Positions 48,101-57,100 of a stretch of DNA of 64,000 bases are shown here, one piece after another (position 1 is the first letter of the stretch; every line of letters begins with the position of its first letter). The stretch comes from Procambarus clarkii. Lineage: Eukaryota > Arthropoda > Malacostraca > Decapoda > Cambaridae. The position numbers and the translations under genes were made by a program. The notes under the pieces were generated by a model. It ran no database searches and was not told where the DNA came from. It was given only the letters and a program-made list of their open reading frames with translations. The stretch is from contig NC_091188.1 of the NCBI RefSeq assembly GCF_040958095.1, forward strand, positions 3,077,181-3,141,180, in the 5' to 3' direction.

Positions 48101-51100
48101 GGTGCCCATATCTCAAGAAGCATATCAATAAACTGGAAAAAGGGGGCATAGGTATGCTTTGAAATATCTTTCTGAACTGTCATTATCTATTGTTGCCATC
48201 ATATTACAGTATCGTGTATTCACTAGGGTGAAAAGACTTTCTATTGGAGGTATTTGACTATGGTTCTTAGCTCAGATATCTTATTTTTTTTTTTTAGAAT
48301 ATGCTATAATAAGCAAAATGATAAAATATTTGTTTTGTATAAACTCTAATATTTCAGAAATTCGTTGCCGTGAGAGACGGTTGCTAGAGAAATCGGCGTA
48401 TGTGCAGAGCATTAGTCTAGCTATGGCTCCCACTGTACCTATAATTGCTGCCATTGTCACTTTCCTGGCTCATATTGGTGCTGGGTATAATCTTACTGCA
48501 GCTCAGGTAAAGTAGTTTTGTCTTTTTTTGACTTTCATGTACAGTTAAGTGGAGAATCTTCAAATGCACCTGTCTATAATGTTAAATTTCAGTGATGAAT
48601 CTAGAATGAGACTTATTCTGTAAACCATAAATTTCATGCTCTAAATTTTAATGTGCTTATAAGTTTTACTTCATTATTTAATTATTTGTAGGATTATTGT
48701 TAAAAATTTTATGATAGCTTTCCATATCTTGAGCAATATTTGGTCAAACATCCATAGTTTGAAATTATATTTCAAACTTTCCAGGTAAATTTATTATTAG
48801 TTATTTTTTTTTTACTTCTAAACTAGCAGAGTACCCATCTTCAACTAGAGTGAAATTTATTTAATTGTCAATGAATTTAGATGAGAATCCCTAGAAAATT
48901 AAATCCATAACTTTTATTTCACTGCCCATGGCCCATTTAATTTTCATGTTAAGGTTTATCAAGATTGATTAAGAAAAAAGATCTTTGGCATCTTTACAAT
49001 GTCATTGGCACCGTTTAAACAAATGTGAAACTAACCATTTGGAAAGGCTTACCTTCTCAGCTTGACTTTCCAACAGAAATAGTCAAACTAAAGGCCAAAG
49101 GTTCTGTGACCCAGTACAGCCACAAAGCTCGTCTCTAGAGAATAGAACACACGTAATATATATCTACTATCCTTTACCCAGAAGAGAGGTTTCCCTAATT
49201 ACACTCTAATGTCCTTCATGTTATTGAAGCATACAATTCCCCTATCATGAAAAGGTAGCTTTCCAACAGGAGGGCAATCATCAAGATCAGAAACAGGTCT
49301 TTCGAGGGGTTAGGTTGATTTACAGACTGGCATACAGACTAGAAAATTGTCCTCTTTCATGAGTTCAGAAATATTCCATTGTGCCTAAACCATGTAATTT
49401 TTAGACTCTGATTTACCTGAATAATAACTTCTTGCAAATTCTCTGGGTAATTTGGTGTCTGAATAAGTTTCCAGTTCCCTCATCTAGTTAAATTTTCCTG
49501 GTTGCCTGCCATGAGGCACACACTAGGATGGAACACTAGACGGTGCTAGAGTTAAACTTTTTGTTTTGTTAGCAGTGCCACTCAACCCTTGGATTAAATA
49601 AATATAAAACATCTCTAACCTTTTTACTGCAGCACCTTCTGGAACTTTTGTTTTCCCACAGGATAGAAAAGTAGGTAAAAAATGTATATTTTTGTTTCGC
49701 ATTTCTTGTTACATTTCCACCAACAAAAATATTTGCACTTTACATCTCTACCACGAAACATATTAACAAAATTTATTCACAGTGTAAAATGTATACGAAG
49801 ATACTGGAAAGACAAGTCTTAAAATATGCAAAATAAAATACTGTAATGACTAAGTAGAGCAAAACATATAGGAGGAAATAGAAAATAACCCAATACTGTA
49901 AAGTGTAAAGATATCATAGGTATAACCAGAAAACACTCTGAATATCATTAACTTCCTCCCACCATATATAAAAACTATTGCTGAACACAAGTAGAGGTTT
50001 TTAAGAGGCAGTTGGACAAGTTCCTGATGGAAGTGCTGGATCAACCAAATTTGTAATGGATGTGTGGGCTTAGAGGCCACTTAAGGCAACATTCTTTCAG
50101 ATTAAGGTATCGCAAGACAAATAGCTGTGCATGTGGAATAGAAGAATTCGTAAAAGAAAATACAGGTAACTTGAGATATTGGTACCACACACTTGCTGCT
50201 TATTTTTTATGAAACAGGTGGGGTGTTTACCTATTAGTGATGTTTTTTTCCTTGTTTCTCTCAGGGTAGAGAGAACCAGAGTTCTCTCTACCCTGGTTCC
50301 CAGTAGACTGAAGTGCTTGTCAGACACATGCCAGGCCTCCGACAGGCATTTCACTTGAGGCCTGGCACCCCCAGTACCTATGCTAAGGTAGCTACTGAAG
50401 GGAGGGGGGGGGGGGGGGAAGGTTTACCTCAGAAAAAGTACTATAGTTATTTATTGTATTTTGTGAATAAAAATACATAAAATTCCTTGGCTAATATGGC
50501 TATTGGTTGCTTTTCTTATATTCTATGTATTGGACACACTTGTATGGCCTATTGCTGAGCTTCTATGCTTAGGTGCTTTTTAATATTATAAGATATAACG
50601 TACTGTATTTACGTACCTTGTGTCTGATCAAGACCTTTTGTACCCTTTGTAATCATTTTCAGCTGCAGGCACAGGATGGTTGCACAATAAACTAGTGAGA
50701 TATACAAAATGTTTGTTCAGAGGCCTGGATGATCAGGGATATTTTGGCAATAAATTCCAAGCATTTTCCTTTATTTTTAAATGTGGCATGGTATTGACTT
50801 AGCAATTTAATATGCTATTTTGGTGGTTATGTACCTGCCGTTTTGCAAGTCAATTAACGGCTTCTTACAAGTAACGATTCATCCTCCATACTATCCAAGT
50901 CAACTAAGAAGTGTGTAACTGCTCTTGTATGTTTTTTTCAGACCTATTCTCTTCTAATGGTATTCAGCACTGTCATAAGAAATGGCTTCTCTTATTCATC
51001 ATATACTTTCATTTTAGAACAAGGAAGAATCTCTATCATTCGTTTTCAGGTTAGCGATGCTATAAAGCTATTCTCTGACTAAAATACACACAAATATTTG

Positions 51101-54100: not shown

Positions 54101-57100
54101 TTCGTGAGGGGCAAATCTCTTTGGAGAGATGTAAGGTATTATAACCTTGTATTTCCTCGTAATATTCATCTTGTTTTGGTTTTGTGGTGTAATTTATAGT
54201 GTAAACTGTTTATATATATATACAGTATATATATATATTGTAGCTTGTGGTACAGTACTGGCATACCTCATTTTAAATAGGGAATATGTTGGTTGCAATC
54301 GGTATTGAAATAAAAAAGTACTTTCCCAAAGATTCAGTTGTATAATTTATGCATGTGTTGCTTGGTACAGTACTTTAATTCTGTCCAGGTTGTTGTGAAT
54401 TTTGTCAAATTAATTAAATAAATGTGGTGCTGTATGAGCTCAGTAATTTGAATTTTGGCGACCTGAATCTCCGAGTAATTCGAATGAATTTACATTTGAT
54501 TTTTTTTTTACCCCTTTTTACTTTTTAGCTTGAATAGGAATTCAGATTAATGGTTTATGCCAAATGAGAAACCCGAATATATTCAAGTTCAAGTAGTTGA
54601 ATTGTCAACTTGAATAGAAATTCAGGTTACAGAGATTTCTGCCAAGAAAAATTTGAATAAATTAAAAGAAATTTAACTTTTGAACTTTACTGCTTAAGAA
54701 ATTTGGTTAACACAAATGTCTGACTAACTGAAGGAGGGTGGGCCCAATCTAATTCGGATTACTGAGCATAGACATTACGAAACATACAGTATTGTACTTG
54801 TCAGATATAATAGAAGAGAGTGTATATTGAGGCTTTGTATATGGGGACTGGTAGTTAAGGAATTACTCTTACAAAGAAACAGAATTATCCGAAAAGGAAT
54901 GTCTACTTTTCATAATTTCTGAAGGATTTATTGAGATCAAACATGTAACACTTTTTTTTTTTTATCAGCACAGGCCAGGCAGAAGCATCAAATCACTTGA
55001 ACATCATCATTTTCATGTCTAAACCATTAGTTTTCCTGGATTTAGCATTGAGGCACTACTGACATTCATTCAATGCTTTTAACACATTATTGTTGGGGCT
55101 TACTGAAGTTCTTCATCTGAATATGTAAAATAAATACATATGACAATCAGTATATCCAGTATGATGACAAACACAGGTAGGTCCCATCATCATGAAAGTG
55201 GCACAAAGTAAAATATGTGAAGTAAATTATTATCTATTAAAGAGCTGCTATCATCAAAGGAGCCACTTTGCCTGTGCACAAAAAAACAAAGCAGCATTGA
55301 ATGTAACGGAACTCCTCTTTCTAGTAGCTTCCCGATGGCTCCCTAAAGCTATCTTCCTCTACTGTGAAATATCAGTCACAGGAATCCTGTTTGGCCTACC
55401 AAGGACCAACCACAGCCAGAACCTGGCCCCACTCAGGTGCAACAAGCAGAGGGATTATTCCAACGGGTTGGGGCCTTATCTTGCTTTTGTCTTCAGAAAG
55501 TCAGCAAAGCAATGAAGACAACTGCAAGGTTCGTAGAAAAGAATACATAAAAAAATACAAATTACTCTGCAAATAACTAATTCTTCACCAGAAAAGGAGG
55601 AGGATGCAAATGAACAAACCATCCTCCTCCAGAGAAGAGCATGAAGCTCTCCAACCTTGCACCTGGATGCAAGAACCAAGAAAAATGCCTCCGCAAGAGA
55701 TGTAACCTGGATTGAAGGGCGCAATCAAATCTATAGCCTGGGTCAGCACAACCTATCTACACATGACGAGCCAAGTATAAATAAATAAAGCCACCACTGC
55801 ATCCTGAAGGAGAGTGTCGAGCATCTTGGACAGAGCCACCAAAACTGCAGTGACTCCTCGATTCCTGCCCTTCCCTCCATGATTGTCAGTTTATTGGTGG
55901 GTTATTCATCAGCTCCAAAACTGGCTGGTCAGTGGAGCCGGTTGAAGACTGGGGCCGGGCTTTCTGGTGGTGGTAATCAGTTCAAATGAGTTTCGAGCTA
56001 GTTTAAATGAATAGTCTGGTTTGTGTGGATCATTTGCCGAGTTGTTTGGTTGTTTTGATTTGTTTTTTGTGAACCCTCCAGTTGTCAGTAAAGCTTCGCT
56101 GACATTCTGGATGCTTTCCTGGTGGGTTGGTAAAATTGTCACTCGCTACCTGAGCATTTGTGGGGGAAGGGGGGTGGCAGGTACTGTTAGGCCAAGTAGA
56201 ACTTCTGCAACTGATGTGATCTTTTAATATGGAGCAAACTCAGTAAGATAGCTTCAGGCAGCCACTGGGGCTCCACCATAAAGAGGGATTTCATTATATT
56301 CAATGTTGGGGTTTGAAAAATTGTACATTGAAGGGACAAATGAGTTGTTTTGACTTTTCAATAAAACATTCAGTATAGGATATTGTGTGATGTATACAAA
56401 AATATTGTCTATAATTGTGCTTTTTCTTTTAGGGTATGACAGTGATAGCCTATCTCTTGGGAAATGCTCGTACATCATTTAATATGTTGAGGTTTGCAAT
56501 TAAAGCCATTGCCGAGGGAAGAGATTCCCTAAGTAGGATCAAGGTGAAAAATTGCACATTTTAGCATGAGTTTTTTAATAAACCTAAAATTTTGAATGCC
56601 CTAAAGTAGTTGAGGTTAGAGAATATTAGTTGCTTTATTGAAGAGGTGATGGGCTCTTTTTTAGGCTTTGACTACACTGATTCTCATGGTACTGTCCATG
56701 GAAAGCTTGCTTAGCAGAAGCTGGAAGGTGTTTTCTTTCATCCACTAAATAGTCCTTAAAATGCTCTCATACTTATGATTTATCATGTCACTTTATTTGG
56801 CTTTAAGTTACTGGCTGTAACATAATAAAACTACTCATATATGTGTGTGTGTTATATCTAAGTGTACTTACAGGATGAGAGCTACATTCATAGTGTTCCA
56901 TCTTTGCAGTACAGTACTGTACTTTTTCATATGACACTTTGAAATTACTGACGGTTTTGGCATCCACTACCTTGTCGCTTAACTTGTTCCAGCTATCTGT
57001 CTTTCTGTTTGGAAAAAGAGAACCTTCTAATATTTTTTCAGCATCTTTGTTTCCTTAGCACGAATCTATAATTTCTTTCATGAAGTTGCAGATTTCAAGA

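Follow-up and report, generated by a model that had tools for sequence, protein, structure and literature searches.

The locus considered here raises the question of why a crayfish exporter gene carries three short exons in tandem between its exons 10 and 12, and whether these exons are alternatives for a single place in the encoded protein. The window, by which we mean the whole 64,000-nucleotide stretch of Procambarus clarkii DNA that was analysed (contig NC_091188.1, positions 3,077,181 to 3,141,180), encodes an ABC membrane domain and, after it, an ABC ATPase domain. The former (PF00664) was detected at ~1e-19 in each of the three window forms containing 11a, 11b or 11c, and the latter (PF00005) at 1.4e-17 when three NBD1 pieces were joined. 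The gene is ABCC5 (MRP5). Its best solved relative in the PDB was ABCC5 (E 2e-100 for the TMD1 part), with other exporters far behind (ABCC4, 5e-43; ABCC1, 7e-36), and the top protein matches among those listed were ABCC5-like or MRP5-like proteins from lobster, crayfish, spiny lobster, crabs and shrimps. An MRP1-type (ABCC1) identity was ruled out by these ABCC5 matches in the PDB and among annotated proteins. The P. clarkii protein P0005 agreed with the window model at 616/617 residues (exons 1-10, 11a, 11b and 44 residues of exon 12). The tblastn pieces of P0005 stop at residue 810 of 1511, so the second half of the transporter (TMD2, NBD2) lies outside the window. The features of the gene are as follows:

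36127-36189, 37133-37386, 38110-38286, 39280-39438, 41629-41776, 42362-42501, 44739-44829, 45368-45541 and 47036-47183, + strand: ABCC5 exons 1-9 (N-terminus and most of TMD1), one open spliced frame with GT-AG at the internal joints, 450/451 identical to P. clarkii P0005
48358-48506, + strand: ABCC5 exon 10, ending LTAAQ in phase 0, 50/50 identical to P0005
50942-51049, + strand: exon 11a, 36 codons, TM6 version a, identical in P0005, grouping with amphipod copy 1 and mantis-shrimp copy 1 (92/93)
54028-54135, + strand: exon 11b, 36 codons, TM6 version b, identical in P0005, grouping with crab X19 and amphipod copy 2 (99/96)
56433-56543, + strand: exon 11c, 37 codons, TM6 version c, 28/37 identical in Homarus and in Panulirus
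58819-58952, + strand: ABCC5 exon 12, linker to NBD1, starting [10 protein letters not shown] in phase 0, 44/44 identical to P0005
about 59290-59392, 60233-60430, and pieces near 61050-61200 and 61670-61798, + strand: ABCC5 NBD1 exons, from P0005 tblastn pieces, the borders of the last two being approximate

A preliminary description of this DNA had placed three homologous exons between exons 10 and 12, and their coordinates, lengths and phases were confirmed. Exons 11a, 11b and 11c lie in tandem, are of like length, have their own splice sites (AG before, GT after) and are in phase 0 at both ends; each closes with the motif G-x-x-S-x-x-R-x-[K/Q]. The intron between exons 10 and 12 contains 14 open AG-[35-38 codons]-GT segments, and the end motif was found in three of them, which are 11a, 11b and 11c. 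Control sequence of 72 kb (window positions 1-36000, both strands) gave 133 open segments, none with the motif; since the motif was derived from the three exons themselves, this comparison is after the fact. When a profile of 85 exon-11 segments of other proteins was run over the six frames of the window, it recovered 11c (E 1e-15), 11b (7e-12) and 11a (2e-5), the latter two with inflated scores because the 85 included the a and b segments of P. clarkii itself from public data, and the next match stood at 0.1. A tblastn search of the intron with 15 segments gave independent matches for b from crab (69% over 36 aa, E 8e-16) and amphipod (56% over 34 aa, 2e-12) and for c from mantis shrimp (70% over 37 aa, 1.5e-15) and lobster (76% over 37 aa, 4e-16), and none for 11a. 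The direct similarity of 11a to 11b and to 11c is weak (z 2-3), and its homology rests on the profile and on the amphipod and mantis-shrimp copies. No fourth copy was detected by the profile over the window or by tblastn with the 15 segments over the intron, where the canonical-like d version of Penaeus and amphipod was likewise not found.

The proposal that the duplication is old was upheld by phylogenetic trees, in which a, b and c each grouped with counterparts from other malacostracans: b with copies in crab and amphipod, c with copies in lobsters, crabs and mantis shrimp, and a with copies in mantis shrimp and amphipod. Clade support was 99/96 for b, 95/90 for d, 92/93 for a and 82/65 for c, on 37 alignment columns in all and, for the a group, on 10-12 identities. 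A triplication confined to the crayfish was rejected, a single clade of its three copies having a p-AU of 2.4e-9, and a single clade of the four amphipod copies was rejected as well (p-AU 0.002). Exon 11c keeps 28/37 residues relative to Homarus, a higher proportion than constant exons 5 and 6 (35/50 and 33/46). Similarly, 11b keeps 25/36 relative to Eriocheir, where exons 5 and 6 keep 30/50 and 28/46. Both are less conserved than constant exons 8-10.

These comparisons bear on the possibility that the crayfish uses one version alone, perhaps 11c, with 11a and 11b being remnants or infrequent noise of splicing. A c-type slot is indeed found in representatives of Homarus, Panulirus, Scylla, Portunus and Petrolisthes, 11a is the most diverged of the three copies, and the 3' splice site of 11b is poor, with a longest pyrimidine run of 2 as against 4-18 in constant exons 2-10 and 12. 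However, 11a and 11b both have open frames with correct borders and are present in the P. clarkii protein model, which 11c is not, and the residues that 11b keeps in crab and in amphipod (19/34 in the latter), including a shared Asp, are not a picture of decay. We therefore consider the use of a single version very unlikely.

The place that the three exons occupy corresponds to residues A433-K468 of human ABCC5, i.e. to TM6. That this slot is the last helix of TMD1 had been stated in the preliminary description and is consistent with both the human alignment and a predicted structure of the barnacle orthologue P0022, in which the slot comprises residues 397-431, helices are predicted at 394-411 and 413-434, and the five best PDB fold matches are all hMRP5. 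A study of hMRP5 names Lys448, Phe452 and Lys455 as TM6 residues around the pocket peptide, and describes an autoinhibitory N-terminal peptide that is touched by TM6 residues in a pocket shared with substrate (PMC11156954). All three of these residues fall within the exon-11 slot. The corresponding residues of 11c are Asn/Phe/Lys, and 6/9 c-type relatives share both the Asn and the Phe; 11b has Asp/Tyr/Gln in crayfish and crab, the Asp occurring in amphipod as well; 11a keeps none of the three human residues. The Lys448 place is not conserved and is Gly or Ala in single-version relatives, so the Asp of 11b is not the loss of a general Lys. The alignment of each copy to the vertebrate ABCC5 segment, also claimed at the outset, held but is loose, with 6-8 identities per 36-37 residues and shuffle z values of 8.1 (b), 5.1 (c) and 3.0 (a).

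From these data we propose that the three exons are, very probably, tandem duplicates of the ABCC5 TM6 exon that serve as alternatives for one slot, with one copy normally spliced. In such a scheme a single TM6 exon, reaching up to the linker, would have been duplicated in tandem, and normally one of 11a, 11b and 11c would be joined between exons 10 and 12. One copy would give TMD1 six helices and place NBD1 in the cytosol. Since all copies are in phase 0 and are multiples of three in length, the reading frame is kept whichever copy is chosen, and the rest of the pump would be constant; for the same reason a frameshift was rejected as the enforcer of exclusivity. Crayfish mRNAs would then be expected to use mostly one copy at a time.

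Isoforms that differ in the slot only are annotated in other arthropods (locusts, Artemia, wasps), and single-copy isoforms that swap the slot while the rest of the chain agrees were found in 6/11 species checked. Two candidate pairs were discarded: the amphioxus proteins X1/X2 differ along the whole chain (1044/1476 identical), and the Pecten/Argopecten pair (1083/1251) comes from two species. Among the 120 proteins listed as ABCC5 matches the slot was empty in 13 and contained two or more copies in at least 11, and three-copy models exist too; the gene models therefore do not bear out strict exclusivity. The only P. clarkii model examined, P0005, which represents 14 clustered sequences, carries 11a and 11b in tandem and lacks 11c; the latter was absent, letter for letter, from every protein retrieved. 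Such models, together with the in-frame, phase 0 character of all copies, would fit ordinary cassette exons, of which 0, 1, 2 or 3 are included without exclusion, the chains with an even number of copies being mis-threaded, non-functional or regulatory. On topological grounds, however, NBD1 would come to lie on the wrong side with one membrane helix too many or too few, and these chains should fail; moreover, single-copy isoforms are present in several of the same species; we regard independent inclusion as unlikely. Pairing of docking sites in the flanks of 11a-c was assessed in eight set-ups (four candidate stretches, each compared with 300-base flanks on either the upstream or the downstream side of the exons, 15 shuffles each), and in this test, which is of low power without related genomes, the best set-up was reached by 2/15 shuffles and the others by up to 15/15.

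If one copy is selected as we propose, the choice among a, b and c would remodel some of the pocket for substrate and autoinhibition, because TM6 is among the walls of the central cavity. The same crayfish pump can thus probably be built with different substrate pockets, and the choice of TM6 may alter the set of anions or conjugates that is exported or the strength of self-inhibition. It is conceivable, though we think it rather less probable, that what sets the versions apart is folding, trafficking or autoinhibition and not substrate choice: TM6 of hMRP5 contacts the autoinhibitory peptide, so a swap could shift self-inhibition with the cargo unchanged (PMC11156954). Substrate and peptide share one pocket, however, and the two effects are hard to separate.

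MRP1 genes were already known to carry tandem alternative exons, and ABCC5 would be a further case. The exon cluster of Drosophila MRP (CG6214), an MRP1 homologue, is the one for which a 2003 work by Grailles is reportedly cited, and the metazoan tandem exon arrays treated by Yue in RNA Biol in 2017 are said to concern MRP1. Such MRP arrays are not known from vertebrates. Like the crayfish gene, Drosophila MRP encodes an ABCC exporter and has alternative internal exons, but it is of MRP1 type. For the metazoan MRP arrays competing RNA structures have been reported, whereas our limited search gave no such signal in crayfish ABCC5. Vertebrate ABCC5/MRP5 (PDB 8wi0 and others) has the transporter and the TM6 slot in common with the crayfish gene, but in the protein chains read (human, P0135, which is named ABCC12-like, and P0138) the slot is present in one copy. 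The variable exons of Dscam, Mhc and 14-3-3zeta are not known to encode membrane-pore helices; exclusivity and docking structures are reported there, whereas in crayfish ABCC5 both would be putative. The use of alternative internal exons by Drosophila MRP, stated in the preliminary description, is borne out by a paper that lists a cluster of eight mutually exclusive exons in the D. melanogaster gene; the same paper describes how an MRP exon was duplicated repeatedly and independently in different animal phyla, with splicing that converged, and tandem clusters with one exon per mRNA in Dscam, Mhc and 14-3-3zeta (PMC6071210). Among the matches listed from the open-access literature, judged by title and abstract start, no paper dealt with alternative exons of ABCC5; this is weak evidence, as subscription papers mostly lie outside that collection. 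Neither PMC3303723 nor PMC3228551 mentions MRP or multidrug or ABC transporters.

More broadly, and as a tentative idea that we hold at somewhat under even chances, ABCC5 may in many invertebrates be a pump with a hot-swappable pore helix. Four ancestral malacostracan TM6 versions, in the order a-b-d-c, would have persisted over several hundred million years with distinct pocket chemistries (e.g. the acidic residue of b at the place of human Lys448), and splicing would select, according to tissue or stress, the cargo or the extent of self-inhibition. The slot would have been duplicated repeatedly in insects, branchiopods, bivalves, brachiopods and crinoids; MRP1 may have undergone its own, independent duplication of it. 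Surveys of arthropod ABC transporters, and RNAi or drug studies, should allow that a single ABCC5 sequence may be one of several forms. The crayfish versions would offer natural, evolution-tested helix swaps for finding the TM6 residues that determine specificity in the human drug pump MRP5. If TM6 is chosen by splicing, one ABCC5 gene could act as several pumps, a point of relevance to the export of cyclic nucleotides, conjugates and xenobiotics by arthropods.

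The window carries the first half of ABCC5 (MRP5) on the + strand. When exons 1–10 and 12 were reassembled, the internal borders were GT-AG and a single open frame resulted, and the model with exons 11a and 11b inserted was identical at 616/617 positions to P0005, a public Procambarus clarkii protein named ABCC5-like isoform X2, which assigns the window to this species or one very near to it. By sequence comparison the gene is ABCC5 and not another ABCC, since the best solved match was human ABCC5 (E 2e-100), compared with 5e-43 for ABCC4 and 7e-36 for ABCC1. Pieces of an otubain deubiquitinase gene lie upstream of ABCC5 (25018-29620, +) and when joined match Pfam Peptidase_C65 (E 1.6e-45). 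By eye we also noted a minisatellite with a period of about 189 bases, in-frame open on the - strand (20735-21355), and a long CT microsatellite (~33360-33600). Beyond the NBD1 exons, a tRNA-like match (62012-62082, -; Rfam tRNA, 41.5 bits) suggests a tRNA-derived repeat, because similar-looking translated pieces were seen by eye elsewhere in the window.

Between exon 10, ending LTAAQ, and exon 12, starting [10 protein letters not shown], we found the three separate phase-0 exons that the preliminary description had placed there:

50942-51049, + strand, exon 11a, phase 0 at both ends
54028-54135, + strand, exon 11b, phase 0 at both ends
56433-56543, + strand, exon 11c, phase 0 at both ends

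The 10.3-kb intron contains 14 open AG-/GT-bounded segments of 35-38 codons, and the end motif G..S..R.[KQ], which was itself derived from 11a, 11b and 11c, occurred in 3/14 of these versus 0/133 open segments of the same kind in a 72-kb control. When the whole window was scanned in all six frames with an exon-11 profile, 11a, 11b and 11c were recovered and no fourth copy; the scores of 11a and 11b were inflated, since P. clarkii a and b segments from public data were part of the profile. Within the cluster, 11b has the weakest 3' splice site, with a longest pyrimidine run of 2 (11a, 8; 11c, 11; constant exons 2-10 and 12, 4-18). Shortly after 11c there is a 21-codon open AG-to-GT phase-0 stretch (56665-56727), which was absent among the listed exon-11 profile matches and matched the amphipod d copy only at chance level (E 9.6). 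Diverged repeat pairs, ~60-84% identical, occupy the introns around 11b and 11c (51272-53441 and 56851-57884); open frames in these stretches may be reverse-transcriptase relics.

The segment encoded by exon 11 (the slot) corresponds to A433-K468 of human ABCC5, as counted from the 8wi0 alignment. It is predicted to be TM6 followed by linker, since in the modelled structure of P0022, the barnacle orthologue (mean pLDDT 77.8, ~76-87 over the slot part) helices 394-411 and 413-434 cover the slot at residues 397-431, in agreement with its earlier description as the last TMD1 helix and linker start. The five best fold matches of this model were all hMRP5. The hMRP5 cryo-EM report describes TM6 Phe452, Lys448 and Lys455 as surrounding an autoinhibitory peptide in a pocket that also receives substrate (PMC11156954). 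All three residues lie within the swapped segment. At the places of Lys448, Phe452 and Lys455, 11c has Asn, Phe and Lys. The Asn and Phe are kept in 6/9 c-type relatives (Homarus, Panulirus, Scylla, Portunus, Petrolisthes and Oratosquilla), where the third residue is Arg in five and Ser in Homarus; the others (two Eriocheir copies and the amphipod copy) each deviate at one of the three places. Exon 11b has Asp, Tyr and Gln, identical in the b exon of the crab Eriocheir, and the amphipod b-type has Asp, His and Leu. Exon 11a retains none of the three, its alignment being uncertain at these places. Lys448 is not general: in single-version relatives, among them Dreissena, Branchiostoma and Paramuricea, this place is taken by Gly or Ala, the second by an aromatic residue and the third by Lys or Arg.

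For the age of the versions, the 120 proteins listed among 180 matches were aligned and their slots extracted. Exon 11a resembles 11b and 11c only faintly (z 2-3); its z was 10 with amphipod copy 1 and 6 with mantis-shrimp copy 1. Protein P0019 of the amphipod Trinorchestia longiramus has four consecutive copies in the order a-b-d-c, and the crayfish a-b-c follows the same order. The d copy of P0019 is similar to the canonical form and clusters with the Penaeus one; no d version was found in the crayfish exon 10-12 intron. Oratosquilla X2 carries tandem a-type and c-type copies, and Eriocheir X19 one b-type exon. A mixture-model tree of 30 segments recovered b (99/96), d (amphipod and Penaeus, 95/90), a (92/93) and a wide c (82/65), and a simpler model with 59 segments gave the same groups (a 99/85, b 98/86, d 99/92, c 94/76), both trees having 37 columns and long branches. 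A single clade of the four amphipod copies was ruled out (p-AU 0.002), as was one of the three crayfish copies (p-AU 2.4e-9), which instead group with counterparts elsewhere, so that the duplication is indeed old, as first proposed. Together, the tree groups and the rejected single-species clades argue that the version set already existed before mantis shrimps, amphipods and decapods diverged from one another, several hundred million years ago. Two adjacent c-type copies in P0007 (Eriocheir sinensis X6) group together, which points to a duplication within crabs or within this species. The variants are conserved about like exons 5 and 6 and below exons 8-10: crayfish and Homarus are identical at 28/37 residues of 11c (exon 5, 35/50; exon 6, 33/46; exon 8, 52/58; exon 10, 47/50), and crayfish and Eriocheir at 25/36 of 11b (30/50, 28/46, 49/58 and 45/50, respectively).

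Isoforms in public gene models were compared in 11 species chosen for having several proteins among those listed; Mya, Mercenaria, Branchiostoma, Daphnia and more, outside this comparison, also have several entries. In all 11 the chains were identical outside the slot, apart from two entries: one from Artemia is missing 133 residues close to the N-terminus, and one from Vespula has 11 additional residues at the slot end. Swaps of a single copy were seen in 6/11, with three versions each in Schistocerca cancellata, S. serialis and Artemia and two each in S. nitens, Vespula pensylvanica and V. vulgaris. Isoforms of the remaining five (S. americana, Eriocheir, Wasmannia, Anoplolepis and Lycorma) vary in having 0, 1 or 2 copies. 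Several observations count against one copy per mRNA. P0005, which represents 14 clustered sequences and is the sole P. clarkii model examined, contains 11a joined to 11b without 11c, and among the 120 listed proteins the slot is empty in 13 and holds two or more copies in at least 11. The reading frame cannot enforce exclusivity among the three exons, and a limited search for docking-selector RNA structure gave no signal above shuffles. With two copies the chain would gain a helix and NBD1 would end up on the wrong side; from this helix count, a chain that has 0 or 2 copies probably does not work as a pump. These exons are best explained as an old set of TM6 alternatives, one of which is normally spliced in.

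Outside arthropods, tandem pairs of copies were seen in Pinctada (P0096), Lingula (P0045) and the crinoid Anneissia (P0133), so that duplication of the slot seems to have taken place in several phyla. One copy per chain was read in four cnidarian proteins (P0111, P0118, P0154 and P0173) and two vertebrate ones (P0135 and P0138), as proteins only, with alternatives possible at the gene level. ABCC genes with tandem alternative exons are already known: PMC6071210 describes a cluster of 8 in Drosophila MRP, and exons duplicated independently, with competing RNA structures, in MRP genes of several phyla. No report of them in ABCC5 was found among the open-access literature matches listed. Here the unit is a single pocket helix, in a drug pump whose structure has been solved. 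Exon choice most likely alters the pocket by changing charge and aromatic side chains at the three contact sites published for it, and this may affect substrate range or self-inhibition.
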